From assembly GCA_016219965.1 (NCBI GenBank), contig JACRJM010000015.1:219857-283856 (forward strand): a DNA stretch of 64,000 nucleotides. The letters run 5' to 3'. This stretch comes from Candidatus Schekmanbacteria bacterium. Its GTDB lineage: Bacteria > Schekmanbacteria > GWA2-38-11 > J061. Under the pieces are notes generated by a model that made no database searches, was not told where the DNA came from, and saw only the letters and a list, made by a program, of their open reading frames with translations. The translations under genes were made by a program, and so were the position numbers. The stretch's first letter is position 1, and every line of letters begins with the position of its first letter. Below are positions 29,632 to 57,179 of the stretch, in pieces.

Positions 29632-31131
29632 ATGAAAATTAGCGATTTAAAAAGAAGATTTTACAATTCACTTTCTTTCAAGCTGACCCTTCTGATGGGT
29701 ATAACTCTCCTTTTAGTTTTTGTTTTCTCAACATCAATAATCGTTAAATTTTATTTTGCCGAGGCAAAAAGCAAGATTCTCAGCACAGCATCTTTTGTGG
29801 CAATGCTTATTAATAATAATCTTCGCCATGACATGCTGATCAATGACCGCGAAGGCATAAATAATTTTTTCAATGATATTTCTAAGCTGGAGGATCTTGT
29901 CAATGCAAGCATCATGGATGATCAGGGTATAATAAAATTTTCAACTAAGAAGAATGCCATAGGCATGAAAATAAGTATTGATGTTTTGCGGCAATACACT
30001 AACACCAAAGAGCATTTTGAATATAAACACACAGAAGGCGAGAGCGTCTGGTCAAATTTCTATGAAATTAGGGGAACACCTGAATGTTACCAGTGCCACA
30101 ATAGATCAAAAAAAATAATCGGTTATCTTTCAGTTGATTTCTCAAGCAAGAAGATTGATGAAATGGTCGCCCGTGAAAAATATGTTATGATCATCACCGC
30201 TTTTGTCTCTATGGGTTTCATATCTTTTGCCCTCTTTTTATTCAATCATTATTTTGTTTATAAGCCCGTTAAAAAGCTTCACCGCCTTATTGAGGGAGTC
30301 AAAGCTGGTAATCTTGATGTAAAAGAGCGTTTTGACAGAAGGGATGAGATAGGAGGGCTTGGAAGAGACTTCAATCTGATGGTAAAAGAGTTAAAAGATG
30401 CGCGGATAAGTCTTGAAGAAAATCAGAAGAAAATTCTTGCCCAGTCTGAAAAGCTCGCCTCTCTTGGCCAGCTTGCATCAGGAATAGCCCATGAGATCCA
30501 GAACCCGCTTGCCGGTATTTCAGGGGCATTGCGCGTAATCCACTCTGAGTATTTATCACAACATACTGATCAGGAGCTGAAAGACATAATTGATAAAATC
30601 CTTTCCCAAATCGACCGTCTGTCAAAAACAACAAAAGATATCCTTAGTTTTGCCAGACCTTCGGTACCGATGTTTGTACCTACAAATATTAACAGCGTTA
30701 TAGAGAAAAGTCTTTTTTTCGCAAGACAGAATGCAAAAAATAATGGTGTGGATATAAGGGAGGAACTCAGTAATGACATTCCTGAGACAAAGGCTGATTC
30801 TGAACTTTTAAAGCAGGTTTTTCTGAATATAATGCTGAATGGAATTCAATCCATGCCTGAAGGGGGTACCCTAACTGTGTCATCAGATATGGGAGATGGG
30901 GGAGTCAGTATAGTTGTATCTGTTTCTGATACAGGCTGCGGGATTCCAAAGGATAAACTTAAGAATATATTTAATCCGTTTTTTACAACTAAGCACCAGG
31001 GGACGGGGCTGGGTTTGTATATCGTTAAGGACATAGTTGACAGCCATAACGGCAGGATTGAAGTTGAAAGCAATAACAGCAAAGGGAGTATATTCAAAGT
31101 GTATATTCCTGTTATACAGGATTTATCATAA
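29632..31131 (+). CDS. Membrane histidine kinase with a periplasmic c-haem site
   Basis: 499 residues. Membrane helices at about 17-40 and 184-207 enclose a periplasmic domain with a CxxCH haem-attachment site at 152-156 (CYQCH). HAMP 208-262, HisKA with H287 in GIAHEIQNPLAGISGA, HATPase 390-495 (DTGCGIP, GTGLGLYIV). A covalently bound haem suggests sensing of redox state or of a gas or metal. The adjacent sigma-54 activator, 32 bases downstream, is the expected partner, and the genes beyond encode cytochromes. Signal identity is inference; domains are clear. Confidence 0.92.
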   Translation: MKISDLKRRFYNSLSFKLTLLMGITLLLVFVFSTSIIVKFYFAEAKSKILSTASFVAMLINNNLRHDMLINDREGINNFFNDISKLEDLVNASIMDDQGIIKFSTKKNAIGMKISIDVLRQYTNTKEHFEYKHTEGESVWSNFYEIRGTPECYQCHNRSKKIIGYLSVDFSSKKIDEMVAREKYVMIITAFVSMGFISFALFLFNHYFVYKPVKKLHRLIEGVKAGNLDVKERFDRRDEIGGLGRDFNLMVKELKDARISLEENQKKILAQSEKLASLGQLASGIAHEIQNPLAGISGALRVIHSEYLSQHTDQELKDIIDKILSQIDRLSKTTKDILSFARPSVPMFVPTNINSVIEKSLFFARQNAKNNGVDIREELSNDIPETKADSELLKQVFLNIMLNGIQSMPEGGTLTVSSDMGDGGVSIVVSVSDTGCGIPKDKLKNIFNPFFTTKHQGTGLGLYIVKDIVDSHNGRIEVESNNSKGSIFKVYIPVIQDLS

Positions 31132-31163
31132 GTAATAATTATATCTGGATGGATAGAATTTAT

Positions 31164-32534
31164 ATGAGCAAAAAAATGTTGATTGTTGATGATGAAGAGT
31201 TGATCCGCTGGTCATTAAAAAAACAGCTAATATCCCATGGACATGATGTTGAAACTTTTGAAAGCGGAGAGAAGGCGATTAATTATTTTAAGAGCGGAGA
31301 AAAGGCTGATCTGATAATTATTGATTTTAAACTGCCGGGAATGACAGGACTTGAAACGACAGCGGAAATTAAAAAAATATATGATGACATAGTTGTCATA
31401 ATGATTACTGCTTACGGAACAGTTGAAACTGCTGTAACAGCCATGAAGCAAAGATACATAGTTGATTATATATTGAAACCCATAAATTTTGATGAACTGC
31501 TAATCGCTGTGGAAAGAGCATTTGAGATAACAGAACTTAGGGCAAGATACAAAACTCTGATTGATGAGAAAACGACTCCTTTCGCGTTTGAAAATATAAT
31601 ATGTAATTCCCAGAAGATGAAGTCAGTCATTGACATGGTGAAGCTGGTAAGCAGGAGCGATGCAACAACCATAACCATATTGGGAGAAAGCGGAACAGGA
31701 AAAGATCTTGTAGCCAGGGCAATTCATTACAACAGCCAGAGACGTGAACATCCCTTTATGGATATAAACTGTGCAGCCCTTCCTGATAATCTTCTTGAAA
31801 GTGAGTTATTTGGCCATGAAAAGGGGGCGTTCACTGATGCGAAGGCTATGAAAAAGGGGCTTTTTGAGCTTGCTGACAATGGGACTATATTTCTTGATGA
31901 GATTGGAGATATGAAACAGGAGCTGCAGGCTAAGCTTTTAACTGCTCTTGAGAGAAAAAGTTTCAGAAGGATAGGGGGGGTAAAAGATATTTCTGTGGAT
32001 GTAAGGATTATTGCTGCGACTAACAGAGAGTTAAAAGAGCTTGTGGAACACAAACAGTTTCGTGAAGATCTTTTTTACAGATTGAATGTAATAAATATCG
32101 AGATGCCCTCTCTAAGAGAAAGGAAAGAGGATATCATACCTCTCATTGAACATTTTATCTCGGAGTTTAACAGGGCATTCAAAAAAAAAGTAAAAGATTT
32201 TTCTCCGGAGGCAAAGGATTCTATCCTCTCCCACGAATGGCCGGGCAATGTTCGCGAGCTTAAGAATGTTATTGAACGATGCGTGATACTGGCAAAGGGG
32301 GATACGATAACTGTTGATGAATTGCCGACAGAATTTAATCCTGCTAAAAGACTTTCAAGGAAAAGGAGTGAATTCAGTATTCCTCCTGGCGGCATATCGA
32401 TTGAGGAATTGGAGAGGGAACTGGTTGTGCAGGCTATAAATATGGCAAACGGCAATCAGACTGTGGCTGCTGAACTTCTTAAGCTTACGAGGGATTCTTT
32501 TCGCAGGAGATTGGTAAAATTCGGATTAATCTGA
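31164..32534 (+). CDS. NtrC-family sigma-54-dependent response regulator
   Basis: 456 residues from ATG 31164 (31149 also possible). Receiver 1-120 with phosphoacceptor D54 (IIDFKLPGMTG) and K in YILKPI. AAA+ domain: Walker A GESGTGKD, Walker B IFLDEIGDM, arginine fingers in FREDLFYRL. The sigma-54 contact loop reads GAFTDA rather than the usual GAFTGA. C-terminal Fis-type HTH (NQTVAAELLKLTRDSFRRRL). Receives phosphate from the haem kinase before it. Two sigma-54 promoters downstream (32561 and 33578) are its likely targets. Confidence 0.93.
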   Translation: MSKKMLIVDDEELIRWSLKKQLISHGHDVETFESGEKAINYFKSGEKADLIIIDFKLPGMTGLETTAEIKKIYDDIVVIMITAYGTVETAVTAMKQRYIVDYILKPINFDELLIAVERAFEITELRARYKTLIDEKTTPFAFENIICNSQKMKSVIDMVKLVSRSDATTITILGESGTGKDLVARAIHYNSQRREHPFMDINCAALPDNLLESELFGHEKGAFTDAKAMKKGLFELADNGTIFLDEIGDMKQELQAKLLTALERKSFRRIGGVKDISVDVRIIAATNRELKELVEHKQFREDLFYRLNVINIEMPSLRERKEDIIPLIEHFISEFNRAFKKKVKDFSPEAKDSILSHEWPGNVRELKNVIERCVILAKGDTITVDELPTEFNPAKRLSRKRSEFSIPPGGISIEELERELVVQAINMANGNQTVAAELLKLTRDSFRRRLVKFGLI

Positions 32535-32560
32535 AAACTGCCTGGTGAGAGAAAATTTAA

Positions 32561-32576
32561 TTGGCATACCTTTTGC
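32561..32576 (+). promoter_or_regulatory. Sigma-54 (-24/-12) promoter before the receiver-PilZ gene
   Basis: TTGGCATACCTTTTGC matches TTGGCAc-N5-TTGC, with GG and GC in the right register. It is 90 bases before the receiver-PilZ start codon and directly after the sigma-54 activator gene. Confidence 0.8.
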
Positions 32577-32666
32577 GTAAAAAAAGAATTTGGATTAACT
32601 TTTAATTATGGTTTTTTTAAAAAGAGATTTTTTTGTAGATTTGTAATGGAGCATAAGGAAGGTACA

Positions 32667-33374
32667 ATGCGAAAAATTCTTGTGATTGATGATGAGGAGC
32701 TTATCTGCTGGTCCCTTAGCAAAGAACTTTCAAAAAATGGTTATATGGTGGACAGTGCCTTGTCCGGCAGAGATGGAATGGAAATGATGAAATGCGAAAG
32801 ATATGATCTTGTTATAACAGATCTCAAACTGCCGGATATTTCCGGATTTGATATGGTAACTTCTGCAAAAGCAATTATGCCGGATATAAAAGTAGTGGTT
32901 ATGTCATCCTATGAATGGGATGCAGATAAAGTTGATTTTCTGAAGAGATATACTTCAGGATTTTTAACGAAACCTGTAAGTCCTTCTTTACTTAACTCTC
33001 TGATGGATATGGTATTTATGGGTGATTCTTCATTTTCAAACTTGGGAATGGGAATTAAATTCTATTCATATAATGAAAAAATACATGATATATTAAATTC
33101 AGGCTTTTCGATTCTACCTTACCAGGCTGGAGACGTAAATAAGGAAAGACGGCGATTTGAAAGATATTCTGTTGATTTTGATGTTGTCTATGCTTTGGAA
33201 AAGCATTTTATTCATGCCAAAGTATCAGATTTAAGCAAAGATGGTGCATTTGTTAAGACAGGAATTTCTCTTGAAGTTGGAAGCCCTATTGATATTGATT
33301 TTTATCTTTCTGGAAATAATGTCCCTGTTTGTGCCATTGGAAAAGTAGTCCGTACTTCTGCAAGAAAATCATAA
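32667..33374 (+). CDS. Receiver-PilZ protein
   Basis: 235 residues from the ATG at 32667, chosen because AAGGAAGG is just upstream and MRKILVIDDEE is the normal receiver start; an ATG at 32646 has no ribosome site. Receiver with D52 in VITDLKLPDISG and K in FLTKPV. After a linker, a PilZ domain with RRRFERYSVDF and DLSKDGAFV, the R-x3-R and D-x-S-x2-G cyclic-di-GMP motifs. So it can combine phosphorylation with cyclic-di-GMP. It is placed between two sigma-54 promoters in the cytochrome regulatory block. Confidence 0.88.
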   Translation: MRKILVIDDEELICWSLSKELSKNGYMVDSALSGRDGMEMMKCERYDLVITDLKLPDISGFDMVTSAKAIMPDIKVVVMSSYEWDADKVDFLKRYTSGFLTKPVSPSLLNSLMDMVFMGDSSFSNLGMGIKFYSYNEKIHDILNSGFSILPYQAGDVNKERRRFERYSVDFDVVYALEKHFIHAKVSDLSKDGAFVKTGISLEVGSPIDIDFYLSGNNVPVCAIGKVVRTSARKS

Positions 33375-33403
33375 TTTTTTTTCAATTAGTCTTACCTCTG
33401 TCT

Positions 33404-33441
33404 TGTGCGAAATCGCAAATAATTATGTGTGGAGTCGCACA
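33404..33441 (+). promoter_or_regulatory. Tandem dyad sites, candidate upstream activator sites for the sigma-54 regulator
   Basis: TGTGCGAAATCGCAAA (33404-33419) and TGTGTGGAGTCGCACA (33426-33441) are two imperfect copies of the palindrome TGTGCGAnnTCGCACA, 22 bases apart, or two helical turns. They lie about 140-170 bases before the sigma-54 promoter at 33578, the usual distance for an enhancer-binding activator. Confidence 0.65.
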
Positions 33442-33577
33442 ACAAACTGCCATTGGTTTAATGATAATCTGGTTAAACCCTGTCCTTCATCTTTCTATGT
33501 TCTCCCTATTCTAAATAACACATTGAAATATAATACTATATTTGCATTGAGTTATTGTTAGTTAACCCTCTTTTAAG

Positions 33578-33594
33578 TTGGCATAGAATCTGCA
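33578..33594 (+). promoter_or_regulatory. Sigma-54 promoter of the cytochrome-filament genes
   Basis: TTGGCATAGAATCTGCA fits TTGGCAc-N5-cTGCA with correct GG/GC spacing. It is 39 bases before the NHL gene start, which has AGGAG. The upstream 200 bases hold no gene but do hold the two dyads. Confidence 0.8.
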
Positions 33595-33632
33595 AAAGAC
33601 CCTTGTAGCAGATAAGGGCAGGAGACTAGATT

Positions 33633-34580
33633 ATGAAGAATAAAAAATTAAAGGCGGTTCTGATAATTTGTTGCGTTGCCCTCGCTATAGCAGCAGCCAT
33701 TAATACTGTTTCCGCTCAACAATTAGGAATAACATATCTTTATAATCTCTCTGATTTTAATGGGACAATTCCCTTTTACGGCGGTAGGCTTTCAGTTGAT
33801 TACGAAAGAAACGAGCTCTATGTCATTTATGGGAACAGTGTTAGGGTTTTCAATGATAAAGGGATGGAAATATACAGTTTTGGAGATGATAGTGACATAG
33901 GTCAACTTATTGATTTAGCGATTGATAACGAAGGCAAGATATTATTGCTTACCTATAAGGATAAAGAGTTTTCAATCCTGAGTTGTAATTACAGGGGAAC
34001 ACCTGAAGAACCAATTGAAATTAAGAATCTTCCCGCTGAATTTTCAGCATTTTCGCCAAATCGAATGGTTTATGGGGGAGGAAATCTTTATCTCCTTTCG
34101 CAAAGCGGCTTGATGATAGTTGTTACAGACAGAAAAGGTAATTTCAAAAAAGCATATGACCTTGCCAGGGCTCTCGAGATTAAAGAAGAGGAAAAGAAGG
34201 ATAAACAGGTTGACGGCTTCAATGTTGATAAAAAAGGGAATATTTTTTTTACGATTCCAGTTTTGTTCAGCGTTTACGAGTTCTCGCATGATGGGAATAT
34301 ATCTTCCTTTGGAAGGGTGGGAAGTGCTTCCGGGAATTTTGGTGTAGTTTCAGGCATAGCAAAGAGTGATAACGGGGACTTTTATGTCGTGGATAAATTG
34401 AAGAATGCGGTAATGGTATTTGACAAAAATTACAACTACTTAACTGAATTTGGCGGCAGAGGGTTAAAACCGGGCAATTTAACAGGACCCAGCGATATAA
34501 TTATTGATGGAATGAACAGAGTCTACGTAACACAGCAAAGAGGTAGAGGGGTAAGCGTATTTAATTTGTCTTTTAACTGA
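33633..34580 (+). CDS. Exported NHL-repeat beta-propeller protein
   Basis: 315 residues with a signal peptide (MKNKKLKAVLIICCVALAIA, likely cut after NTVSA). The rest is NHL-type blades, e.g. RNELYVIYGNSVRVFNDKG, SGIAKSDNGDFYVVDKLKNA and GPSDIIIDGMNRVYVTQQRG. No cysteines for haem. NHL propellers are found beside filament-forming cytochrome genes in Geobacter relatives and may help assembly, but their job is not established. First gene after the sigma-54 promoter, and 140 bases before the first hexahaem cytochrome. AGGAG ribosome site. Confidence 0.85.
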   Translation: MKNKKLKAVLIICCVALAIAAAINTVSAQQLGITYLYNLSDFNGTIPFYGGRLSVDYERNELYVIYGNSVRVFNDKGMEIYSFGDDSDIGQLIDLAIDNEGKILLLTYKDKEFSILSCNYRGTPEEPIEIKNLPAEFSAFSPNRMVYGGGNLYLLSQSGLMIVVTDRKGNFKKAYDLARALEIKEEEKKDKQVDGFNVDKKGNIFFTIPVLFSVYEFSHDGNISSFGRVGSASGNFGVVSGIAKSDNGDFYVVDKLKNAVMVFDKNYNYLTEFGGRGLKPGNLTGPSDIIIDGMNRVYVTQQRGRGVSVFNLSFN

Positions 34581-34720
34581 AACAATTTTTTATGCAGAAA
34601 AAAAATAATAATCTGCAATATTTGGAAGGAGGTGGTTGGGGATAGCAAGAAGGATTTTGGTGGTTTAGCAGTAATGAAGAAATTGCTTTAAATGTCTAAC
34701 ACCTAATAAGGGGAGAAAAA

Positions 34721-35947
34721 ATGAAAGTATTGAAATTAAGCTTGATAGTTTTAGGAGCAGTGCTTCTGAGCTTTGGGCTTTCCAGCATGAGCTATGCTTT
34801 CCATTCCGGCGGCGCTGCAGAATGCGGCGGATGTCATAGCATGCATAGCCCAGCGGCAAGCGGGAGCTACCTTTTGGTTGGTAATGATAATAGTTCGACC
34901 TGCCTGACCTGTCATGAACATGCAGGAGATACAGGTCCGAGCAGCTATCATATATCAACAGCAGCAGCAGATCTGTCGGCCGGCGTTCCTCCGAAGCAGT
35001 TGACTCCTGGCGGCGACTTTGGCTGGCTGAGGAAAGACTACAGCTTCGTAGTAAGAGGCACAACGACTAACGAAGACGGCGAAACCCATGGTCACAATAT
35101 AGTAGCAGTAGATAATGGTTATGCAGCAGATTCTGTGAACACACAGGCACCTGGCGGGACTTACCTTGCATCTGACCTTGGATGCCCCAGCTGTCATAAT
35201 CCTCATGGTAAATGGAGAAGGTTATCAGACGGAACAGTTGCTACAACCGGCGCTCCGATAATCGGCTCAGGCTCATATGATACCAGCTTAACACCGGCTG
35301 CAGGCGAGGCAGTAGGCGTTTACAGGCTGCTTGATGAAATTGAAGGAGTAAAACCTCCTATAGCAGTTGTTCCTGCAACATACAACAGGGCAGAATCAAG
35401 CACGCAGACCCGCGTTGCCTATGGGCACTCATCAACACAGAAATGGGGTGCATGGTGTGCAGCATGCCATACAGATATGCACAGCGATAGCGGTTATGTA
35501 CATCCGATTGATGAGACTCTTGGTAGTGAAATTGCAACGAACTACGGTCAGTATGTAAAATCAGGCGATATGTCAGGAAGCTCAGCAACATCTTTCACAT
35601 CATTGGTTCCTTTCGTTGAGAACTCAGCAGATTACACAGTGCTGAAATCACATGCAAAGAACAATGATTCAGTATTGAATGGTCCCGCATCAAGTGACAG
35701 GGTTGCCTGCATCTCCTGCCACAGGGCCCATGCATCAGGCTTTGAGTTTGGGTTAAGGTGGAATATGGAAGGCGAGTTTATAACTCACTCCGGACAATTC
35801 CCCGGAACAGACACGACACCGAGCTATCCTCAGTTTGCAAGAGGACGCTTAGGGGCAGAAACTCAGAAAGCATACTATGACAGAGCTATTTCTAAGTTTG
35901 CAACCTATCAGAGAGTGCTTTGCAACAAGTGTCATGCACAAGACTAA
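34721..35947 (+). CDS. OmcS-like hexahaem cytochrome, first tandem copy
   Basis: 408 residues. Signal peptide 1-26, mature start FHSGGAAECGGCH. Six CxxCH motifs at 35-39, 61-65, 155-159, 246-250, 330-334 and 401-405. It shares with Geobacter OmcS the mature start FHSGG, AGDTGPSSYHIST, TPGGDFGW, HGHNIVA, APGGTYLA, NPHGK, STYNR-like and TQTRVAYG, CISCHRAHASG and a C-terminal CNKCHA. The extra conserved histidines (YHIST, GHN, HP, SHAK) are the expected second haem ligands. OmcS polymerises into an extracellular conductive filament. Strong ribosome site AGGGGAG. Ends at a clear terminator. Confidence 0.95.
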   Translation: MKVLKLSLIVLGAVLLSFGLSSMSYAFHSGGAAECGGCHSMHSPAASGSYLLVGNDNSSTCLTCHEHAGDTGPSSYHISTAAADLSAGVPPKQLTPGGDFGWLRKDYSFVVRGTTTNEDGETHGHNIVAVDNGYAADSVNTQAPGGTYLASDLGCPSCHNPHGKWRRLSDGTVATTGAPIIGSGSYDTSLTPAAGEAVGVYRLLDEIEGVKPPIAVVPATYNRAESSTQTRVAYGHSSTQKWGAWCAACHTDMHSDSGYVHPIDETLGSEIATNYGQYVKSGDMSGSSATSFTSLVPFVENSADYTVLKSHAKNNDSVLNGPASSDRVACISCHRAHASGFEFGLRWNMEGEFITHSGQFPGTDTTPSYPQFARGRLGAETQKAYYDRAISKFATYQRVLCNKCHAQD

Positions 35948-35978
35948 GAAAAGGTATTTATAGTTATCAGCTTTAATA

Positions 35979-36010
35979 AAAGGGGGCTGCTAAAACCAGC
36001 CCCCTTTATG
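35979..36010 (+). terminator. Rho-independent terminator after the first OmcS-like gene
   Basis: Stem AAGGGGGCTG-type 35979-35989 paired with CAGCCCCCTTT 35997-36007, loop CTAAAAC. Would limit read-through into the second copy, allowing a higher level of the first. Confidence 0.85.
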
Positions 36011-36088
36011 TGTGTATATAAATCAGTTCATGCAATAGATTCCAAGGTTTAGAAAGCCTGTTCATATTCATAATGGATGGGACATAAA

Positions 36089-37315
36089 ATGAGAATTTTG
36101 AAGTTGTGCTTAATCATAATCGTGCTGGTTCTTCTAAGCTTTGGGTTTGCCGGTATGAGTCACGCTTTCCATTCCGGCGGTGTTGGAGAATGCGGTGGTT
36201 GCCATAGCATGCATAGTCCGAAGGCAGGTGGGAGCTACCTTCTTGTCGCTTCAGATTATAGCTCGACATGTTTGACATGCCATGAACATGCAGGTGATAC
36301 CGGACCGAGCAGCTATCATATATCAACTGCAGTAGCAGATTTGTCAGCAGGCGTTCCTCCGAAGCAGTTAACCCCCGGAGGCGACTTTGGCTGGCTGAGG
36401 AAAGACTACAGCTTTGTAGTAAGAGGCACCACGACAAACGAAGATGGCGACACGCATGGACATAATATTGTTGCTGTAGATTATGGTTATTCATCGGATT
36501 CTACAAATACGCAGGCTCCCGGCGGGACATATTTATCGTCAAATCTCGGATGCACAAGCTGTCACAATCCGCATGGCAAATGGAGAAGAGTGTCAAACGG
36601 GGGAGTTATTAATTCAGGTGCTCCCATAATAGCATCCGGTTCATACGACAACAGTCCTGTACCGGAGACAGGTGAGGCAGTGGGTGTTTACAGGCTGCTT
36701 AATATGATTAACAGAGGAACACCTCCGATGGCTGTAGCTCCTTCAACTTATAACAGGGATGAATCAACCACACAGACTCGAGTTGCTTATGGCTCCTCAT
36801 CAGTCCAGAAATGGGGTGCATGGTGTGCATCATGCCATACAAATATACACAGTGATAACGGCTATACGCATCCGGTTGACGAAACCCTTGGCAGCAGTAT
36901 CGCAGCGAAATATGCCAACTATGTAAAAACAGGCGATATGTCAGGCAGTTCAGCAACTTCATTTAATTCATTAATTCCGTTTGCAGAAAATACCAGCAGT
37001 TATAGTGTCCTTAAAAATCATGCCAAAAATAATGATACATTTCTGAACGGTCCTGCATCAAGTGACAAGGTAACATGCATATCATGCCACAGGGCACATG
37101 CATCAGGCTGGGAATATGGCTTACGATGGAATATGGAAGGCGAATTTATAACCTATGCCGGGCAGTTTCCCGGAACAGACACGACGCCAAGCCAGCCGCA
37201 GTTTGCAAGGGGACGTGTGGCAGCAGAAACACAAAAAGCATATTATGACAGGCCTGTTGCAAAATTTGCAACCTATCAGAGAGTGCTTTGTAACAAGTGC
37301 CATGTGCAAGATTAA
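36089..37315 (+). CDS. OmcS-like hexahaem cytochrome, second tandem copy
   Basis: 408 residues from the ATG at 36089; this start aligns with the first copy and has GGATGGGA upstream, while ATG 36077 adds four residues. Signal peptide, then FHSGGVGECGGCH. Six CxxCH motifs in the same order (CGGCH, CLTCH, CTSCH, CASCH, CISCH, CNKCH), and equal length. Most changes lie between haem sites. The arrangement mirrors the neighbouring omcS and omcT of Geobacter. It is preceded and followed by terminators, so it may have its own promoter in 36011-36088, though none is obvious. Confidence 0.94.
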   Translation: MRILKLCLIIIVLVLLSFGFAGMSHAFHSGGVGECGGCHSMHSPKAGGSYLLVASDYSSTCLTCHEHAGDTGPSSYHISTAVADLSAGVPPKQLTPGGDFGWLRKDYSFVVRGTTTNEDGDTHGHNIVAVDYGYSSDSTNTQAPGGTYLSSNLGCTSCHNPHGKWRRVSNGGVINSGAPIIASGSYDNSPVPETGEAVGVYRLLNMINRGTPPMAVAPSTYNRDESTTQTRVAYGSSSVQKWGAWCASCHTNIHSDNGYTHPVDETLGSSIAAKYANYVKTGDMSGSSATSFNSLIPFAENTSSYSVLKNHAKNNDTFLNGPASSDKVTCISCHRAHASGWEYGLRWNMEGEFITYAGQFPGTDTTPSQPQFARGRVAAETQKAYYDRPVAKFATYQRVLCNKCHVQD

Positions 37316-37354
37316 GGAAAAGTACTGATAATTAGTAAACATCATAAAGAAAAT

Positions 37355-37387
37355 AAAAGAGGGCTGGTGAGGAATCAGCCCTCTTTT
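37355..37387 (+). terminator. Rho-independent terminator after the second OmcS-like gene
   Basis: AAAAGAGGGCTG (37355-37366) pairs perfectly with CAGCCCTCTTTT (37376-37387) around a nine-base loop. Overlaps the start region of the next gene, so that gene depends on read-through or its own promoter. Confidence 0.85.
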
Positions 37388-37415
37388 ATTATTGAACAGC
37401 ATTTACTGCTGTATT

Positions 37416-38840
37416 ATGATAAAAAATATGCAAAAAAAACTTATATTTTTGACTTTGGTTGTTCTTTACTCTTTTTTTTTCCAGGGTTGTCAGACAGGGA
37501 GTTTCAGGTTCAAACAGCCGCTTGAAAATGAAGGAGAGCTGTATGTTTATGTTAAACCCTTTCCCAATGAAGCTGAAAGACTCTCTTTCAAGCTCGAAAG
37601 CATTTCTGCTTTAAGAAGCGACGGTTCTGAGTTTAAACTGACGCTAATTTTAGATAAATTCGATTTCTTTGAGATTGGGAGGCAAAGACTGATTGCGACA
37701 GGAATCCTTCCGCCCGGAAATTATGCGGGATTAAGGCTAAAAGCTTCAAGTGCTTCTCTTAAGACGGAAGAAGGAGAGCGTTCTCTCTTTATATCTGATG
37801 TTTCCTCGCAATTGGATTTTCAGTTCCAGGTGGAAAGAACTAAGGCATCAATGATCTCAATGAGTTTTAAATATGCTGAATCGGTAAGCGACAAATTCAG
37901 CTTCACCCCTTTTTTTTCGGTTTTTATTCCTGAACGGACCATTCCCGGCCTTGTCGGATATGTTTCCAATTACAGCGACAACAGTATCATGGTTTTTGAC
38001 AAAAAAAAATTGGAGATAACCGGAGTTATTTCCACTGAAGCCGGTCCAAAAGGAATGGCATTAGATAATCTGCTAAAGAGAACTTATATTTCCATCTATG
38101 ATGAAGATATGGTTTTTGTCTATGATATATCTTCTAACCGTTTAATAAATATTATAAGGCTTGATATAGGGGACAATCCCGGGGAAATTCTACTTTCACA
38201 GGACGGGCAGTTGCTTTTTACTGCAAATAACGGGTCAGATACAGTAAGCATTGTAAATACCGGCTCTTCTCTGGTTATGGAAAAAGTACAGGTGGGAGAC
38301 GGTCCAAATTCTCTCTTGATTGATAATAGCGGAAGACACATCTATGTTTTTAACACTCTTTCAAACAATATCTCTGTTATAGATGTTGCAACCAGAAAAG
38401 TGTCTGCTACAATTCCAACCGAACAGGGACCTCTGAGAGGGCAGTTCAGCAGGGAAGAGGATAAACTCTTTGTGATACACGAAAGTTCCCCTTATCTTCT
38501 TGTCTTTGATACTTCAACTCTGGCTCTATTGAGAAGAGAATCCATTGGCATGGGAGCCAAATTTATCAAGGTTGATAAGAGGACAGGTTTTTTTTACATT
38601 GCAAATGAATATAAGGATGAGATTGCCATTTACAATCCACTCTCCTTTATTCCAATGGATTATATACTCACAAAAGGCGCAGTAAACTATATGACCATAG
38701 ACGGAGAGGAGAATAATCTTTATCTTCTTGCGCCGGATTCCAAGTCCCTCGTGGTTATTAATATTATAAGCAGGAAGGTTATCTCCGAGATGGATATAAG
38801 TGATAATCCAGACTGGATAACATTAGTCGGAGAGCAATAG
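37416..38840 (+). CDS. YVTN-type beta-propeller lipoprotein
   Basis: 474 residues from ATG 37416 (a TTG at 37392 and ATG 37428 are alternatives). Signal peptide with lipobox FFFQGC, so a lipoprotein. Residues about 30-190 are a DUF4382-like beta domain (LESISALRSDGSEF), then a seven-blade YVTN propeller (VGYVSNYSDNSIMVFD, DNPGEILLSQDGQLLFTAN, VGDGPNSLLIDNSGRHIYVF). No haem motif. It lies between the hexahaem cytochromes and an outer-membrane barrel, so a role at the outer membrane in cytochrome handling is likely but unproven. Confidence 0.82.
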   Translation: MIKNMQKKLIFLTLVVLYSFFFQGCQTGSFRFKQPLENEGELYVYVKPFPNEAERLSFKLESISALRSDGSEFKLTLILDKFDFFEIGRQRLIATGILPPGNYAGLRLKASSASLKTEEGERSLFISDVSSQLDFQFQVERTKASMISMSFKYAESVSDKFSFTPFFSVFIPERTIPGLVGYVSNYSDNSIMVFDKKKLEITGVISTEAGPKGMALDNLLKRTYISIYDEDMVFVYDISSNRLINIIRLDIGDNPGEILLSQDGQLLFTANNGSDTVSIVNTGSSLVMEKVQVGDGPNSLLIDNSGRHIYVFNTLSNNISVIDVATRKVSATIPTEQGPLRGQFSREEDKLFVIHESSPYLLVFDTSTLALLRRESIGMGAKFIKVDKRTGFFYIANEYKDEIAIYNPLSFIPMDYILTKGAVNYMTIDGEENNLYLLAPDSKSLVVINIISRKVISEMDISDNPDWITLVGEQ

Positions 38841-38883
38841 AGGATTTTTTTTCCAGCCCATGGCTGCTTAAGGAGCTTGTTGG

Positions 38884-44162: not shown

Positions 44163-44174
44163 AAAATAAAAAAA

Positions 44175-48052: not shown

Positions 48053-48081
48053 AAGTATAATCTGAAAGAATTTGAGCTGAG

Positions 48082-49959
48082 ATGAAATTCGGATTTTCAA
48101 AATCAAGAGAAGGAATAACTATTATTATTTTGACAATAGTCTCCTTCGCTGTCTTCGGGAATGCCCTTTTTAACGGATTTGTTTACGATGATCATTTCCA
48201 GATATTGGATAATGAATGGATCAAAGATGCAAAATATATCCCCAAAATATTTTCCACAAATGTCTGGGAGTTTGAAGGTGAGGTTTCAAATTACTACAGA
48301 CCTCTTATGCATCTAAGTTATATGGCCTGTTATTATATCTTTGGAATCGAACCCTTTGGATTTCATCTTGTAAATGTCTTTTTTCATATAGGAGTCTCTT
48401 TACTCCTTTTTTTCATTATTTACAGGATGCTTGAAGGAATAATTACCCCTTATCCGGCTTCACCTTTTTTGCCTGCTCTTGCAGGTGCAGTGCTGTACGC
48501 GGTACATCCTGTGCATACTGAAGCTGTGACCTGGGTTGCCGGTATACCTGAGCTTTCTTTTTCATTTTTTTATTTGCTTTCTTTTTATCTTTACTTATCA
48601 GCGACAGCAGTGAAAGATTTGTCCTTTTTGCTCTCCCTCTTGTCATTTTTCCTTGCAATATTGTGCAAAGAGACAGCTTTGACACTACCATTAATCATTG
48701 TCTGTTATGATTTTTCTTTCAGAAGGAATAAGCTGATATTTTCTGATTTTCTTAAAAGATACCTGCTTTTTTTTATGGTCTGTGGAACTTACCTTGTTTT
48801 AAGGTTTTCAGTGCTTGGAAATTTTGCGCCTTTAAAACGTCATTCCAATCTCAGCGTTTATGAATATTTCATCAATATATTTCCTCTTTTCAGCAAGTAT
48901 CTCAAAAAACTCATTTTTCCTGCAAACCTAAATGCTTTTCATGTTCTTCATCCAATTTCTGCTTTGATGACTGTTAAAGGAATTGTCTCGATAGTGATAT
49001 TTTTATTGTTTGTCATTTCAATGTTTATTTCCCTTAAAAAGAACAAAGAGATCTTTTTTGCTCTTAATCTAATTGCCCTGCCTTTAATCCCTGTGCTGTA
49101 TATACCGGCACTTGGTGAAAATACTTTTTCTGACCGGTACCTCTATCTTCCATCTGCCGGATTTGTGATGCTTTTATCAATTATGTTTTTTTGGCTTAAT
49201 GCCTATAAAGCCAAATGCTTCAATTTTATTTCAGTTAGCTTCCTTATAGTAATTTGTTTTTATGCTTTTAATACCATAGAAAGAAACAAGGTCTGGGAAA
49301 ATGATTTTTCCTTGTGGAAAGATACTGTGAAAAAGTCTCCTGACAGTGCATTTGCACTTAATGAACTTGGGATTGCATATGCAGGCAAAGGCATGTTTGA
49401 TGATGCAATAAAGCGATATGTTGCGGCTTTGAAGATAAACCCTGATTTTGCAAGAGCGCATAATAACCTCGGAATGGCTTATATGGCTGGGGGGCAAATA
49501 GATAAAGCCATTGAACATTATAATGAAGCTTTGAAGATAAGCCCAAATTTTTCAAAAGTACATAATAACCTCGGAATAGCATATGAGAAAAAAGGTATGA
49601 CAGATGAGGCGATTGATGAGTTTAAAAAGACGCTGGATTTGGATCCTGATGGTTACGAGTTTTATATTAATTTGGGAAATGCTTACAATAAAAAGAGATT
49701 GCCACAAAAAGCAATGGAATCGTACCAGAAGGCACTGGAATTAAAACCGGGCAATTCTGATGTGTGCATGCATATCGGTATTCTTTACGGGGAATCGGGG
49801 CAACTAGATAATGCGATTGAATATTTTGAAAAAGCTTTAGCATCAAATCCGAGTGACCCGATAATCTATTTCAACATGTCAAATGCCTATAAACTAAAAG
49901 GGCTTGTAAATAAAGCTGAAGAATACATGGCCAAGGGAAGAAGTCTGTCGGAAAGGTAG
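48082..49959 (+). CDS. TMTC-like GT-C/TPR protein, copy 3
   Basis: 625 residues. FVYDDHFQILDN, NYYRPLMHLSYM, GFHLVNVFFHIGVSLLLF, VHPVHTEAVTWVAGIPELSFSF and ENTFSDRYLYLPSAG repeat the signature of copy 2. Six TPR repeats follow from about 420 (NELGIAYAGKGMFDDAIKRY onward). About 30 bases after copy 2. Three tandem, clearly diverged versions suggest different acceptors or a complex. It ends the membrane-protein block; the next 130 bases carry only a weak promoter. Confidence 0.84.
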   Translation: MKFGFSKSREGITIIILTIVSFAVFGNALFNGFVYDDHFQILDNEWIKDAKYIPKIFSTNVWEFEGEVSNYYRPLMHLSYMACYYIFGIEPFGFHLVNVFFHIGVSLLLFFIIYRMLEGIITPYPASPFLPALAGAVLYAVHPVHTEAVTWVAGIPELSFSFFYLLSFYLYLSATAVKDLSFLLSLLSFFLAILCKETALTLPLIIVCYDFSFRRNKLIFSDFLKRYLLFFMVCGTYLVLRFSVLGNFAPLKRHSNLSVYEYFINIFPLFSKYLKKLIFPANLNAFHVLHPISALMTVKGIVSIVIFLLFVISMFISLKKNKEIFFALNLIALPLIPVLYIPALGENTFSDRYLYLPSAGFVMLLSIMFFWLNAYKAKCFNFISVSFLIVICFYAFNTIERNKVWENDFSLWKDTVKKSPDSAFALNELGIAYAGKGMFDDAIKRYVAALKINPDFARAHNNLGMAYMAGGQIDKAIEHYNEALKISPNFSKVHNNLGIAYEKKGMTDEAIDEFKKTLDLDPDGYEFYINLGNAYNKKRLPQKAMESYQKALELKPGNSDVCMHIGILYGESGQLDNAIEYFEKALASNPSDPIIYFNMSNAYKLKGLVNKAEEYMAKGRSLSER

Positions 49960-50069
49960 ATTTGCTCTGATGATTATGTTAGTTGACATAATAACTGGAT
50001 TTGATAAATTCATTGAATTTATTAATTAAAACAAACTATAAATAAACACTGATGACGGTTAAATTTTAA

Positions 50070-50075
50070 TATAAT
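50070..50075 (+). promoter_or_regulatory. Candidate -10 box before the lipoprotein genes
   Basis: TATAAT 33 bases before the start at 50103. The -35 region is a weak match. Low certainty. Confidence 0.3.
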
Positions 50076-50102
50076 GCGAGAAAAATATTCGGGATGCCGG
50101 CA

Positions 50103-50672
50103 ATGAAAATCTATAATTTAAACAAATGTGTGGTTTTATTTGTGCTTCTGTCATTTTTAGCCTGCTCTCATACCGACGTTTATAAAGATACTAATATGGA
50201 CTTCGGAGCAATACAGAGGGTGGCTGTCATGCCTTTTGCAAATTTTTCAAGAGATAATCAGGCAGCAAGCAGGGTAAGGGATGTTTTTATTACTATGTTA
50301 ATGGCAACAAGCACAGTATATGTTATCCCTACGGGTGAAGTATCAAGCGGAATCTTAAAAACTGGTATGACTGATTCGTCCGCTCCCTCTGAAGAGGAAA
50401 TTAAGAGGTTTGCAAATATCGTCAATGCAGATGCCGTGATTACTGGTGTTGTGAAAGAGTATGGGGAAGTCAGGTCAGGAAGCACCCCTTCAAATATCAT
50501 TTCTATCAGCATGCAGATGATAGAGAAGGACTCAGCTAATGTAGTATGGTCCGCTTCCTCAACAAAAGGTGGGGTAAGCATTACAGACCGACTTTTTGGA
50601 GGTGGCGGTGTTCCAATAAATGATATTACAGAAGATGCAATCAATGAAATATTGGATAAGCTTTTCCAGTAG
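50103..50672 (+). CDS. Small lipoprotein with a CsgG/GNA1162-like fold
   Basis: 189 residues from ATG 50103 (ATG 50094 possible). Signal peptide with lipobox SFLAC. The pattern AIQRVAVMPFANFSRDNQAA, then NADAVITGVVKEYGE and DSANVVWSAS, resembles lipoproteins built on the CsgG/TolB-N-like alpha/beta fold that sit at the outer membrane. CsgG itself makes a secretion channel for curli; whether this protein does is unknown. It overlaps the next lipoprotein gene by 29 bases. A role in exporting filament subunits is an inference from place. Confidence 0.7.
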   Translation: MKIYNLNKCVVLFVLLSFLACSHTDVYKDTNMDFGAIQRVAVMPFANFSRDNQAASRVRDVFITMLMATSTVYVIPTGEVSSGILKTGMTDSSAPSEEEIKRFANIVNADAVITGVVKEYGEVRSGSTPSNIISISMQMIEKDSANVVWSASSTKGGVSITDRLFGGGGVPINDITEDAINEILDKLFQ

Positions 50673-51771
50673 ACTGTTAGTCTGCCTTTCCGTAATTATT
50701 TTAATTTCCCACGGCTGTTCAATAACTGATAAGAAAGTGGAAAGAGGCTACGAAAATATTCAAAAACTGAATATAGCCGTTTTACCAATACAAAATCTGA
50801 GCGGTTCTGTAGCGCCGTTAAAAGAAATAAGGGAACTACTCATAGCCAGAGTTAGAAGTATGGGAATAAATGTGATAGAGGAATCTCTCCTTGAAGGATA
50901 TATGGAAAAAAACAGAATACGTTATTCAGGCGGGATAGATAACAAAACATCTCTATCAATAAAGGCTGAAATAGGAGTTGATGCTGTTTTAATCACATCT
51001 CTTACTCTTTACAATGAGTATCTTCCGCCGAGGGTTTCGTTAAGTTCAAGGATGGTTTCAACCGGAGGAGAACCGTCAATAATGTGGATGGATAGCATTG
51101 GCTTTGCAGGAAATGATTTCCAGGGTTTGTTGGGATTGGGCATTATAACGGATCCGGTTGAAGCAAGGGTAAAAGCTGTTATGCTTCTTGTTGATTCATT
51201 GTCAGGATATCTTTCAGGGAAAGTTGGGATCTATGAAGCCCCATGGGGAGGAATTAGGTTTAATCCGAAGTATGTTTATAATAAAAATTTCATTAAAAAA
51301 GATAATAAATACAAGATAGCAGTAATACCATTTTTCAATGACAGCACTCGGAAGAATGCAGGGGAAATAATGATGCTCCATTTTGTTGAGCAATTGGTGA
51401 AACAAAAAGAATTTGATTTGGTAGAACCTGGGATAGTAAGGGAAAAACTTCTTGAATTAAGAATAATAATGGATCAGGGGATTTCAACTCCTCAATCCGA
51501 ACTTCTTTTTTACACTTCCGACATTGATTTGATATTGGGTGGGAGAGTAACTGATTTTCAGGATTTTATAGGTTTTTATGGCAATCCCATTGTTGATTTC
51601 TCTGCAATGATTATGGAAAGAAACAGCCGTGATGTTGTATTTGCGGCTAAGAGCTATAACAGGGGAGGTGACTATGTTTTTCTGTTCGACTGGGGGACGA
51701 TTAATGTAGCTGAAGAAATGGCATCTGAAATGATTAAGGCTGTCACTGGTTTAATTGTGACTGATAACTAA
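50644..51771 (+). CDS. Lipoprotein with two CsgG-like alpha/beta halves
   Basis: 375 residues from the ATG at 50644, inside the end of the preceding gene. Signal peptide with lipobox ILISHGC. Two similar units: LNIAVLPIQNLSGSVAPL...GVDAVLITSLTLYN, and YKIAVIPFFNDSTRKNAGE...DIDLILGGRVTDFQDF. Each looks like the MPF-containing alpha/beta unit of its neighbour, so this is probably an internal duplication. It likely works with the neighbour at the outer membrane. Family not recognised by name. Confidence 0.7.
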   Translation: MKYWISFSSRLLVCLSVIILISHGCSITDKKVERGYENIQKLNIAVLPIQNLSGSVAPLKEIRELLIARVRSMGINVIEESLLEGYMEKNRIRYSGGIDNKTSLSIKAEIGVDAVLITSLTLYNEYLPPRVSLSSRMVSTGGEPSIMWMDSIGFAGNDFQGLLGLGIITDPVEARVKAVMLLVDSLSGYLSGKVGIYEAPWGGIRFNPKYVYNKNFIKKDNKYKIAVIPFFNDSTRKNAGEIMMLHFVEQLVKQKEFDLVEPGIVREKLLELRIIMDQGISTPQSELLFYTSDIDLILGGRVTDFQDFIGFYGNPIVDFSAMIMERNSRDVVFAAKSYNRGGDYVFLFDWGTINVAEEMASEMIKAVTGLIVTDN

Positions 51772-51840
51772 ATAAGATTTAATAAGGCCAGTAGGAATGA
51801 GGCGCATTTGCATAAAATGTAATTAAGTGAGGATATTTAT

Positions 51841-53583
51841 ATGAGAAAATTGTTTGTAGTAATCGAGATATGCTTTGTAATATTTTTTGTCTTCCAGTCA
51901 GATGTCTTTTCTTTTGGAGGACTGGTTCAGAATGAAAATGATCTTTCCGGCAGGGAAGCCCCGGTGAGTAACGACATTCTTATCAATCTTAGAATACCAT
52001 TATTTTCTCCTTTGTTTTCTAACATTCCCGTTGCATTGGTCAATGGAGAAGCCATTACACTGGATGACCTTAAAAATTCTCTTGGCTCAATTCATGAGGA
52101 TGTAAGTGAAAAAAAGGGACCGGCAGATAAAAACTTTAATGAAATTATTAACAGACTTGTCAATGTAAAACTTATACTGCAGGAAGCACGTGATATAGGG
52201 TTGTATGATTTGCAGGACGTAACAAAAATGATTGATAGTTATTCAGAAGAGCTTTTGATTGAAATGGTTCAGGAAAGACGAGTAAAGGATCTTAAGGCTG
52301 ATGATGCAGAAGTGGACAATTTATATAAAAAAGAAGTCAAGGAACTAAAAATCAAATCAGTTCTTTTTGAAAAGGAAGAAGATGCTAAAAAAATGATTGA
52401 AGAGATAAAAAATGGAAAAAACTTTGATGAGATTGCACAGACTTTAATTTCCAATGAAACTGCTAAAGGAGATATTGATGGGACTTATCTTAGAGAAAAA
52501 GAGCTGCAGCCAAACGTGTTTAAGGCAGTATCTGAAATGGAAATTGGAGGGATAAGTTCAATTGTCCCTGTGATTAAAGGTTTTTCGATTTTTAAGCTTG
52601 AAGAGACACGGTTTCCTGAAGATGCTGGAATAAAGGAAAAGATAACAAATGAGGTTCTTAACCGGAAAAAAGTGCAAGTATTGATTGAATACAATAGCGA
52701 GCTTTTAAAGAAGTACGTAAAGATAAATCAAAAATTAGTTGATAAAATAGATTTTGAGGCGCTGAAGCCAGGATTTGAAGAATTATTGAAAGACAATAGA
52801 ATTGTTGCAGAGATAGAAGGCGGTGATAAGGTTACAGTAGGACAATGGGCAGATGCTATAAAACAAAAATATTTTCATGGTGCAGATAGGGCGATTGAAA
52901 GAAAGAGGGTAAATAAAAACAAATATGAAGTTCTTGAAAAAATTATTGTAAAAAAAGCTCTTATCATTGAAGCGTCCAAAGCCGGCATTGATAAAACCGA
53001 AGAATACACAAATATGATTAAGGGGTACGGGGATTCATTAGTATTTAATGAATTTGTAAAAAAGGCTGTTGCTCCTAATATTAAGATGAATGAAGAAGAC
53101 AAACAAAAATATTATGAAGACCATAAAATGGAATATGCTTATTCCGAAATGGTAAAGATTGATGCCCTGGGCTTTGAAAATATTGATTTCGCCAAATCAG
53201 CCCTTAAGAAGCTTGATTCAGGAGCAGAGTTCGAATGGATTAAAGAAAATGCTGAAGGCAAGCTTGATAATATTTCTGACGAGATTCTGGCGATCGAAGG
53301 CAATGTGATAGCGACAGATAGTTTGCCAGATGATATTAAAAAAGCCTTGTCAGGTGTTAAAAAAGGAGATTTCAGGCTATATGAGGCGGCTGACGGTTTT
53401 TTTTATGTTTTCTATATCAAAGAGTTTTATGTTGCAGTACCTCAGCCCTTTGAAGATGTAAAGGATTTAATAACAAACAAAGTTGTTGGAGAGAAGCTTA
53501 ATAGCGAGTTAAGATATTGGGAAAATAAGCTAAGGGAGCAATCCGATATCAGGATATTCTTTCAATCAGAAGCTTCAATGTAA
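51841..53583 (+). CDS. SurA/PpiC-like periplasmic peptidyl-prolyl isomerase
   Basis: 580 residues. Signal peptide (IEICFVIFFVFQSDVFSF), then NIPVALVNGEAITLDDLK, the start of a SurA-type chaperone domain. Parvulin-like segments at about 155-260 (KIKSVLFEKEEDAKKMIEEI, KNGKNFDEIAQTL) and again near 420-540 (DFRLYEAADGFFYVFYIKEF). Both look diverged, so chaperoning may matter more than isomerase activity. PPIases occur next to filament cytochrome genes in Geobacter. It sits between the lipoprotein pair and the 26-haem cytochrome. Confidence 0.85.
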   Translation: MRKLFVVIEICFVIFFVFQSDVFSFGGLVQNENDLSGREAPVSNDILINLRIPLFSPLFSNIPVALVNGEAITLDDLKNSLGSIHEDVSEKKGPADKNFNEIINRLVNVKLILQEARDIGLYDLQDVTKMIDSYSEELLIEMVQERRVKDLKADDAEVDNLYKKEVKELKIKSVLFEKEEDAKKMIEEIKNGKNFDEIAQTLISNETAKGDIDGTYLREKELQPNVFKAVSEMEIGGISSIVPVIKGFSIFKLEETRFPEDAGIKEKITNEVLNRKKVQVLIEYNSELLKKYVKINQKLVDKIDFEALKPGFEELLKDNRIVAEIEGGDKVTVGQWADAIKQKYFHGADRAIERKRVNKNKYEVLEKIIVKKALIIEASKAGIDKTEEYTNMIKGYGDSLVFNEFVKKAVAPNIKMNEEDKQKYYEDHKMEYAYSEMVKIDALGFENIDFAKSALKKLDSGAEFEWIKENAEGKLDNISDEILAIEGNVIATDSLPDDIKKALSGVKKGDFRLYEAADGFFYVFYIKEFYVAVPQPFEDVKDLITNKVVGEKLNSELRYWENKLREQSDIRIFFQSEASM

Positions 53584-53733
53584 TTAGGAGGTATATTTAT
53601 CAACCTAGTAATAATGCATTCAAGTTTTCTGCAGCAAACTGAGAGTGGTAAAATACTTTAGAATAACATTAAATATTTTGCAGAATAAGTTTCTGAATAT
53701 TCTTAATTAATGCCCTAAAAAAGCATATTTTTT

Positions 53734-53762
53734 TTGACTTACATTTTTTCTTGATGTATTTT
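53734..53762 (+). promoter_or_regulatory. Candidate sigma-70 promoter of the 26-haem cytochrome
   Basis: TTGACT at 53734-53739, 17-bp spacer, TATTTT at 53757-53762, about 155 bases before the cytochrome start. The rest of the 334-bp gap (53584-53917) holds no gene I can see. Confidence 0.5.
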
Positions 53763-53917
53763 TTATTTTAAAAAAGAGTGTAAATTTTCTTTCTTATTTT
53801 ACTTCTGAAAGGGTAGCTCAGAAATTACCGGTACTACTAACAATTTATTGTTGCCCTGAGATTGAAGTTGAACTTGGGAATGGCAATTAAGAAAAGTATC
53901 AACACATTGGAGAAAAT

Positions 53918-55894: not shown

Positions 55895-55904
55895 AGGAGA
55901 AAAG

Positions 55905-57179
55905 ATGAAATTAATGTATAGAATGTTTTCCCTTTTTTTTCTTATGGAGATGTTTTTTTGTATTACATATGTTGATTCAGCAGACAAGTTCAAGCTTAAG
56001 CCGGGAGCAGAAGGAAAAATATGCCTCGATTGCCATTCGGATTTTGAGAAAAAAATTGGTGGGAAATTTGTTCATACTCCGGTAAAGTCCAGGGATTGCA
56101 GAGGTTGCCATAATCCCCATGCTTCAACTTATGATAAAATGTTGTCTAATAGCACTAAGGAGATTTGCTTCACCTGTCACGAAGAGATAATACCTAAAAA
56201 TGCGGCTAGTACCCATAAAGTTGTAGTCGAGGGAAACTGTGTAAAATGTCATGACCCCCATGGATCCAATAATAAATTCAATCTGCTAAAGGAAGGAAAT
56301 GACCTTTGTTTTGATTGTCACAGGAAAAAAGGAGATGAGATAAAAAAGTTTGAGTTTAAACACAGCCCGGTAGAAGGGAATTGTCTTAACTGTCACAACC
56401 CCCACGCCTCAGTTGAATCAGCCTATCTATTGAAAAACAAGGTGCCTTCTATATGCAACGATTGTCACAAAACCGACAGCCAGGCATTTGTTAGACAGCA
56501 TATGAACTATCCTGTTGGCGGGCAAAAGTGTAATATATGTCATAGTGTGCATGGTTCTAATAAGGCTGGATTACTGTATAGCAACGTGCATCAACCTGTC
56601 AGTGGAAAAATGTGTGCGCAGTGTCATGAAGACTTTAACTCAAAGACCCCATTTGCCACAAAGAAAGCCGGTGTTGAGCTTTGCAAGGATTGTCATAGTG
56701 ACATGATAAGCCAGGTATTGGGCAAGAGTCATGTTCATCCGGCTTTAGATGATAATAACAGCTGCTTGAACTGCCATAGTCCTCATGCCACTGACCAGCC
56801 TAAACTTCTCAAGGATACAATGGTAGAGGTATGTAATAATTGCCATCCAGATGTCATTGAGAAGATTATAACTGTTAAGACAAAGCACGCGCCTGTTAGC
56901 GAAGGTACTTGCACCGCTTGTCATATGCCGCATTCATCAGAGAGCGCATTTCTCCTCAAAACACCTACTGTTATAGGGCTTTGTGGTGGTTGTCATGATT
57001 GGCAGGGGCATTCAACACACCCGATAGGAGAAAAAGTATTTGATCCAAGAGATAAAACACATACACGTACCGTTGATTGCCTGAGTTGTCACGAGCCTCA
57101 TGGGAACGACTTTGAAAGAATGCTCCGTTACAAGGTGCAGACTGAATTGTGTACTCAATGCCATCAGGAAAAGCGCTGA
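55905..57179 (+). CDS. Exported multihaem cytochrome with 16 CxxCH motifs
   Basis: 424 residues from ATG 55905, ten bases after the previous stop and after AAAGGAG; an upstream ATG frame overlaps the other cytochrome and lacks a signal. Signal peptide (FSLFFLMEMFFCITYVDSA). Sixteen CxxCH motifs counted, in the same alternating pattern as the 26-haem protein (CLDCHSD, CRGCHNPHAS, CFTCHEE, CVKCHDPHGS...). Clearly a paralogue. The two probably form a relay to or from the hexahaem filaments. Cotranscribed with the gene before. Confidence 0.93.
   Translation: MKLMYRMFSLFFLMEMFFCITYVDSADKFKLKPGAEGKICLDCHSDFEKKIGGKFVHTPVKSRDCRGCHNPHASTYDKMLSNSTKEICFTCHEEIIPKNAASTHKVVVEGNCVKCHDPHGSNNKFNLLKEGNDLCFDCHRKKGDEIKKFEFKHSPVEGNCLNCHNPHASVESAYLLKNKVPSICNDCHKTDSQAFVRQHMNYPVGGQKCNICHSVHGSNKAGLLYSNVHQPVSGKMCAQCHEDFNSKTPFATKKAGVELCKDCHSDMISQVLGKSHVHPALDDNNSCLNCHSPHATDQPKLLKDTMVEVCNNCHPDVIEKIITVKTKHAPVSEGTCTACHMPHSSESAFLLKTPTVIGLCGGCHDWQGHSTHPIGEKVFDPRDKTHTRTVDCLSCHEPHGNDFERMLRYKVQTELCTQCHQEKR

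Follow-up and report, generated by a model that had tools for sequence, protein, structure and literature searches.

A putative osc cluster with two OmcS-type hexahaem cytochromes in a Candidatus Schekmanbacteria genome

Results

Gene content of the locus

The window analysed here is a stretch of 64,000 nucleotides from a Candidatus Schekmanbacteria genome (assembly GCA_016219965.1, contig JACRJM010000015.1, positions 219,857 to 283,856). Within it, 17 co-directed genes, all on the + strand, span 29632–57179 (Table 1). Two tandem genes for OmcS-type hexahaem cytochromes, subunits a and b, are followed by counterparts of OscD to OscJ of Geobacter. We read this block as a well-preserved osc (omcS companion) cluster in a little-known lineage; the gene set itself is already published. 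A first-pass annotation had described the block as a self-contained locus for the regulated assembly of extracellular cytochrome filaments. Its gene inventory was present in full on the + strand (Pfam/NCBIfam), along with two genes that it did not mention, those for the receiver-PilZ regulator and the SpeE-like major facilitator superfamily (SpeE/MFS) protein. The outer-membrane barrel and the three GT-C/TPR (tetratricopeptide repeat) proteins were called without a family match, from the C-terminal strand pattern, the DD motif, transmembrane segments and homologues.

The tandem cytochromes are OmcS-type subunits

Both products have six CXXCH motifs and a signal peptide that ends before FHSGG. 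The stretches AGDTGPSSYHISTA and TPGGDFGW are kept in both, as the first-pass annotation had noted in its comparison with OmcS; the terminal CNKCHA that it also listed is found in subunit a, and subunit b ends in CNKCHV. When all PDB chains were searched with phmmer, OmcS (6ef8/6nef) was the sole match, over the full length, with E values of 4.9e-113 (a) and 4.7e-109 (b). Membership in OmcE or OmcZ was thus rejected. Pairwise identity to mature OmcS is 57% for subunit a and 55% for subunit b, and the two share 80% with each other. This relatedness is far beyond chance.

In the alignment, all 12 ligand histidines of OmcS, the bis-His set of its six haems, are kept in both subunits, His16 included. 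Across 78 homologues, 11 of the 12 presumed ligands are invariant, and 67 sequences, including both window subunits, retain His16. We take His16 to be the ligand of the neighbouring subunit's haem in the OmcS structures of 2019. Ligation of an interfacial haem across subunits has been described in a source that does not name the residue (PMC12954529).

The presence of His16 varies with gene position. It is found in 26 of 26 complete copies directly 5' of OscD and is missing in 9 of 17 copies at other positions (multiple alignment), the only one of the twelve to be lost; these rows are not independent of each other, and the class of other positions is crude, including genes of G003 at contig breaks and the omcS of G505 that lies beyond SpeE. 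A pairwise alignment, which is out of register by one motif at G529 and G541, gave His16 in 10 of the 17 other copies (Fisher p 0.003).

In summary, the window subunits share with the OmcS filament (6ef8, 6nef) full-length homology, six CXXCH motifs, the 12 ligand histidines, an identical mature start and a near-identical end. They differ from it by about 43–45% sequence divergence, and their polymerisation is a prediction. The OmcS filament has a rise of 47 Å.

Subunit tree

In a tree of 78 rows, subunits a and b are sisters (100/100) within a 17-row clade that also holds Nitrospirota, Acidobacteriota, Desulfobacterota-type genomes and G003, a genome of the window's own order. Geobacter OmcS and OscC sit in other clades, and a constraint that placed the window pair with Geobacter OmcS (6ef8) was rejected (approximately unbiased (AU) test, p 0.0012). 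These results point to an independent, lineage-specific duplication, and they overturn the parallel to omcS and omcT, whose orthology with the tandem pair was rejected on the same grounds.

When the pair was constrained with the subunits of G003, the tree was not rejected (AU p 0.061). The core machinery proteins of the window and G003 are sisters with a bootstrap of 100. Transfer of the cluster across phyla was rejected, since the machinery tree unites the window and G003, as expected under vertical descent. The subunits may have been replaced, as the subunit tree parts the window from G003, though insignificantly.

The neighbourhood is conserved across genomes

Homologues of OscD-E-F-G-H-I-J follow an OmcS-type gene in the window, and this order recurs in at least 14 other genomes (G003, G352, G354, G505, G516, G525, G529, G541, G572, G062, G066, G068, G221 and G222). 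The cluster spans several phyla in addition to the window's own order. Loci L001–L008 from metagenome-assembled genomes (Deltaproteobacteria, Nitrospirota, Acidobacteriota) share this order up to the ends of their contigs; L006 is cut by a contig end, and L008 has both dense cytochromes upstream instead. Conserved gene order, which the first-pass annotation had named as a check, is therefore found in related and unrelated genomes alike. Relatives in the window's order were represented by three other genomes, and all further ones rank as "same domain" only.

The closest counterpart is in G003, whose locus is almost a copy of the window block. One contig carries the kinase, activator, PilZ regulator, propeller and OmcS genes. 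Another carries a propeller, the barrel, SpeE, the first GT-C gene (GT-C1), a second OmcS gene, two lipoproteins, a peptidyl-prolyl isomerase (PPIase) and cytochromes with 25 and 16 haems. Further multihaem open reading frames (ORFs) with 9, 11, 8 and 10 CXXCH lie directly 3' of its 16-haem gene (L108/L109, G003:C106). The cluster is patchy within the order, because the same-family relative G001 gave only a weak match (E 5e-6) and G002 none.

Single components are conserved to different degrees. Homologues of the sigma-54 activator, 42–60% identical, lie beside osc in G003, L002, L003, L004 and L007. OscD-type genes 32–51% identical to that of the window stand directly 3' of OmcS genes at other loci, and OscE-type barrels were found in 16 other loci. 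For OscI, 25/26-haem genes at osc loci are 45–58% identical, and in 14 other loci the gene directly after OscI is a 15/16-haem homologue of OscJ. L102 (G062) and L117 (G222) have an extra, divergently transcribed OmcS-like gene upstream of osc, beside a PilZ regulator.

Comparison with the osc cluster of Geobacter

Both PMC13194489 and PMC12977616 cite Shen et al. 2025 (doi 10.1016/j.chembiol.2024.12.013) for the osc operon of Geobacter. According to the former, OscH acts in folding, OscE/F/G in secretion and OscD in morphology. The same text equates OscC with GSU2501, OscI with GSU2495 and OscJ with GSU2494, and lists the 26- and 16-haem proteins as periplasmic. PMC12977616 ties an eight-gene block, GSU2500–2493, to the maturation and secretion of OmcS. 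Of the individual genes, GSU2495 encodes a protein with 26 haem motifs (PMC2996986), GSU2497 a lipoprotein, GSU2507 a sensor kinase (both PMC3495685) and GSU2502 a "spermidine synthase" (PMC10599522).

We compared the window with G. sulfurreducens through this literature and through the Desulfuromonadia relatives G505 and G516 (72%-identical OmcS). The Geobacter cluster (GSU2504–GSU2493) and the window share, in the same order, OmcS-type subunits, a propeller, a barrel, two lipoproteins, a PPIase and the 26- and 16-haem cytochromes; a sensor kinase and a SpeE-like gene are nearby in both. Gene order suggests which window genes correspond to OscE, OscF and OscG. Unlike Geobacter osc, the window has subunits from a separate cross-phylum clade, SpeE between the barrel and the lipoproteins together with three GT-C/TPR genes, a kinase with a c-haem motif, and no GEMM riboswitch found. 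The idea of a filament-assembly block stands on its OmcS-type subunits, the conserved neighbourhood and the folding and secretion roles known from Geobacter; it does not stand as new.

PelC-like lipoproteins

The OscG-type lipoprotein has no Pfam match. Its AlphaFold model (pLDDT 76, pTM 0.78) contains two copies of one fold, and Foldseek matched it to PelC (5t0z, E 1.8e-8) and PelBC (9h80, E 1.4e-7), then to GNA1162 and LpoB, and weakly to CsgG (E 5e-4). The OscF-type lipoprotein matches PelC (9h80) by sequence. When a profile of the OscE-type barrel was searched against PDB chains, no match was found, and PelB or another known barrel was rejected as its identity.

Like the PelBC exopolysaccharide exporter, the window encodes PelC-fold lipoproteins together with an outer-membrane barrel. 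In contrast to PelBC, OscG has two PelC domains, the barrel has no sequence relation to PelB, and the cargo would be a protein. No PelB-type barrel with a TPR scaffold was recognised by the profile search, and the locus is not classed as PelBC. The CsgG system exports a protein that polymerises outside, and CsgG is a distant fold match of the OscG model; however, that match is far weaker than the one to PelC, and no curli-type genes were seen. The PelC-like domains of the two lipoproteins suggest a ring-and-barrel exporter, with a PelC-like ring on the OscE barrel. We offer it as a model for the reported secretion role, since the lipoproteins are PelC-like but the barrel matches no PDB chain.

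Regulation

The kinases of G003 and L004 carry their CXXCH where the window kinase does; those of L002, L003 and L007 have one CXXCH at a different place. The first-pass term "haem-sensing" should be "haem-bearing", because a CXXCH in the sensor domain says nothing about haem sensing. Two -24/-12-like sites, TGGCATACCTTTTGCG and TGGCATAGAATCTGCA, occupy the first two spacers 3' of the activator gene. A post hoc search of the window with an ad hoc matrix gave only 6 such sites with a score of at least 14, both strands counted. The hairpins after the subunit genes could raise subunit over machinery mRNA. Geobacter omcS is under the control of a GEMM riboswitch. In the window, a GEMM search gave nothing at the gathering threshold and only chance-level matches below it, and such control was rejected here.

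SpeE/MFS and GT-C/TPR genes

Full-length SpeE/MFS homologues at about 50% identity or more were found in 8 of the 19 other genomes searched (9/20 with the window). The gene adjoins or forms part of osc in the window, G003, G352, G505, L006, G062 and G066, and stands away from it in G221. GT-C1 has counterparts in G003, in the same position (52% identical), and in G352, beside SpeE (40% identical). The link of the TPR GT-C genes to osc is weaker than that of SpeE/MFS, since such genes are common in the window's own genome (9 at E<=1e-40). In L107 (G068:C87), SpeE and several GT-C/TPR genes lie near a kinase and a sigma-54 activator on a contig without OmcS; osc is on another contig.

Borders and other multihaem genes

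For the 16-haem gene, the probable start is near 55905, directly after the 26-haem gene, rather than at 55791, where its ORF opens inside the 26-haem gene. The next gene encodes MreB. At the 5' edge, a strong intrinsic-terminator-like hairpin (29504–29532) precedes the kinase gene. Between the methylmalonyl-CoA mutase gene and the kinase gene, 28895–29470 encodes a 191-aa protein with no Pfam match. Contrary to the first-pass description, the block cannot be called self-contained, because the same genome has another dense multihaem region (G000:C10:133647-151021), with several large ORFs matching Cytochrome_C7. These cytochromes are probably more of the electron-export chain. Searches for rpoB with TIGR02013 and PF00562 found none in this genome despite its stated completeness of 98%, most likely due to an assembly gap.

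Table 1. Features of the osc-type block (positions in the window)
Feature	Position	Strand	Basis
Sensor histidine kinase (HAMP-HisKA-HATPase), one c-haem motif CYQCH in predicted periplasmic loop	29632..31131	+	Pfam; alignment
NtrC-family sigma-54 activator (receiver, AAA+, Fis HTH)	31149..32534	+	Pfam
Sigma-54 -24/-12-like site TGGCATACCTTTTGCG, 84 bp 5' of receiver-PilZ gene	32562..32577	+	14.7/16, ad hoc matrix
Receiver-PilZ response regulator	32646..33374	+	Pfam
Sigma-54 -24/-12-like site TGGCATAGAATCTGCA, 54 bp 5' of NHL propeller gene	33579..33594	+	14.7/16, ad hoc matrix
Exported NHL/6-bladed propeller	33633..34580	+	Pfam; precedes the OmcS genes at most osc loci
OmcS-type hexahaem subunit a (mature protein starts at F27; its His16 is encoded at 34844-34846)	34721..35947	+	phmmer
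Stable hairpin GGGGGCUGCU...AGCCCCC between subunit genes	35979..36007	+	Folding, z -2.1 for whole spacer
OmcS-type hexahaem subunit b (start probably at 36089; His16 encoded at 36212-36214)	36077..37315	+	phmmer
Terminator-like hairpin, 17-pair stem, between subunit and machinery genes	37352..37390	+	-26 kcal/mol, z -6.7
OscD-type YncE/YVTN beta-propeller lipoprotein, probable start about 37428	37392..38840	+	Pfam, NCBIfam
OscE-type outer-membrane beta-barrel, discoidin-like insert	38884..41115	+	Weak Pfam F5/8 type C at 289-399; homologues
MFS/spermidine-synthase-like membrane protein, 1000 aa	41160..44162	+	NCBIfam NF037959 E 6e-42
GT-C/TPR membrane protein 1	44175..46127	+	TPR Pfam; DD motif
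GT-C/TPR membrane protein 2	46124..48052	+	TPR Pfam
GT-C/TPR membrane protein 3	48082..49959	+	TPR Pfam
OscF-type lipoprotein, single PelC-like domain	50094..50672	+	Pfam GNA1162-like; phmmer to PelC 9h80 E 5.9e-5
OscG-type lipoprotein, two PelC-like domains, probable start 50644	50620..51771	+	AlphaFold model, Foldseek
OscH-type PPIC/SurA-like periplasmic chaperone	51841..53583	+	Pfam Rotamase_2 E 7e-20
OscI-type 26-haem cytochrome, 26 CXXCH in 658 aa	53918..55894	+	CXXCH count; doubled-CXXCH Pfam
OscJ-type 16-haem cytochrome, 16 CXXCH	55905..57179	+	CXXCH count; doubled-CXXCH Pfam

Discussion

We consider it likely that the block is an osc cluster which makes and exports OmcS-type hexahaem cytochrome filaments. 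That the window subunits form filaments is inferred from their sequences. In the mechanism that we propose, the haem-bearing kinase would sense the redox state of the envelope and drive the sigma-54 activator, which would fire promoters 5' of the PilZ regulator and 5' of the propeller-omcS genes. The hairpin after each subunit gene may hold subunit mRNA above machinery mRNA. Pre-subunits would cross via Sec, be loaded with haem and be held by the PPIase chaperone OscH, and would then exit through the OscE barrel coupled to OscF and OscG, with their one and two PelC-like domains. Outside the cell they would polymerise, His16 of one subunit ligating the haem of the next. The propellers may influence the shape or anchoring of the filament, whose base could receive electrons from the periplasm through the 26- and 16-haem proteins. 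The weakest step is a possible modification of the filament or the surface by SpeE/MFS and the TPR glycosyltransferases; "decoration" by the GT-C proteins, as the first-pass annotation had it, is possible. The full picture, in which wires are exported through a barrel and PelC-like ring, chemically dressed by a dedicated SpeE-like enzyme and TPR glycosyltransferases in some lineages and switched on by a haem-bearing kinase and sigma-54, is doubtful as a whole.

Several points weigh against a filament-producing osc cluster. The organism is known here from its genome alone. An AlphaFold2 model of the subunit with 11 homologues reached a pLDDT of 32, so the fold is assigned from the 57% full-length identity. 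Among Geobacter OmcS paralogues, only OmcS itself is known to polymerise (PMC12977616), and the window pair is kept apart from it by the AU test. Whether Geobacter needs OmcS filaments for its physiology is a matter of dispute (PMC11077965). To these can be added the barrel without a PDB match and the clear sigma-54 sites seen in few other osc loci.

The hexahaem pair could be osc-linked without forming filaments, like Geobacter OscC (GSU2501, of unknown function), and the cluster could serve or export soluble or surface-bound electron carriers. The window genes do lie directly 5' of OscD, which is the place of OscC in Geobacter (PMC12977616), and outside the OmcS clade. However, the tree does not place them with the OscC rows either, and their high identity to OmcS and the retention of His16 with all other ligand histidines make this role unlikely. 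Less probable still is a fixed Mtr-type porin-cytochrome conduit, with the dense multihaem proteins running through the 743-aa barrel and no polymer. A barrel and dense cytochromes share one operon, as at porin-cytochrome loci, and the cytochromes match MtrC/F-like domain models, but polymer-type subunits are encoded in the same operon, the barrel resembles no PDB chain by profile, and the 26- and 16-haem proteins are periplasmic in the Geobacter list cited above.

A further alternative concerns one step of the filament mechanism only. The SpeE and GT-C/TPR genes may belong to a surface-glycan module that is a passenger here, its insertion being fortuitous and without relation to the filament, and we give this somewhat less than an even chance. 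It would agree with the abundance of TPR GT-C genes in the window's own genome and their absence from several osc loci. Against it, SpeE and GT-C1 occupy the same position in G003 and come soon after OscJ in G352, full-length SpeE is linked to osc at the seven loci named above, and GSU2502 lies within the Geobacter cluster.

A full, order-conserved cluster for OmcS assembly is thus seen in several phyla, one of them, that of the window, sparsely sampled. PMC12977616 poses the problem of telling real wire subunits from other OmcS-like proteins. The retention of His16 at the core position and its loss in about half of the other copies would provide a candidate sequence rule with which to test for true wire subunits. 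The PelC-like fold of the lipoproteins would give the export of such wires a concrete model.

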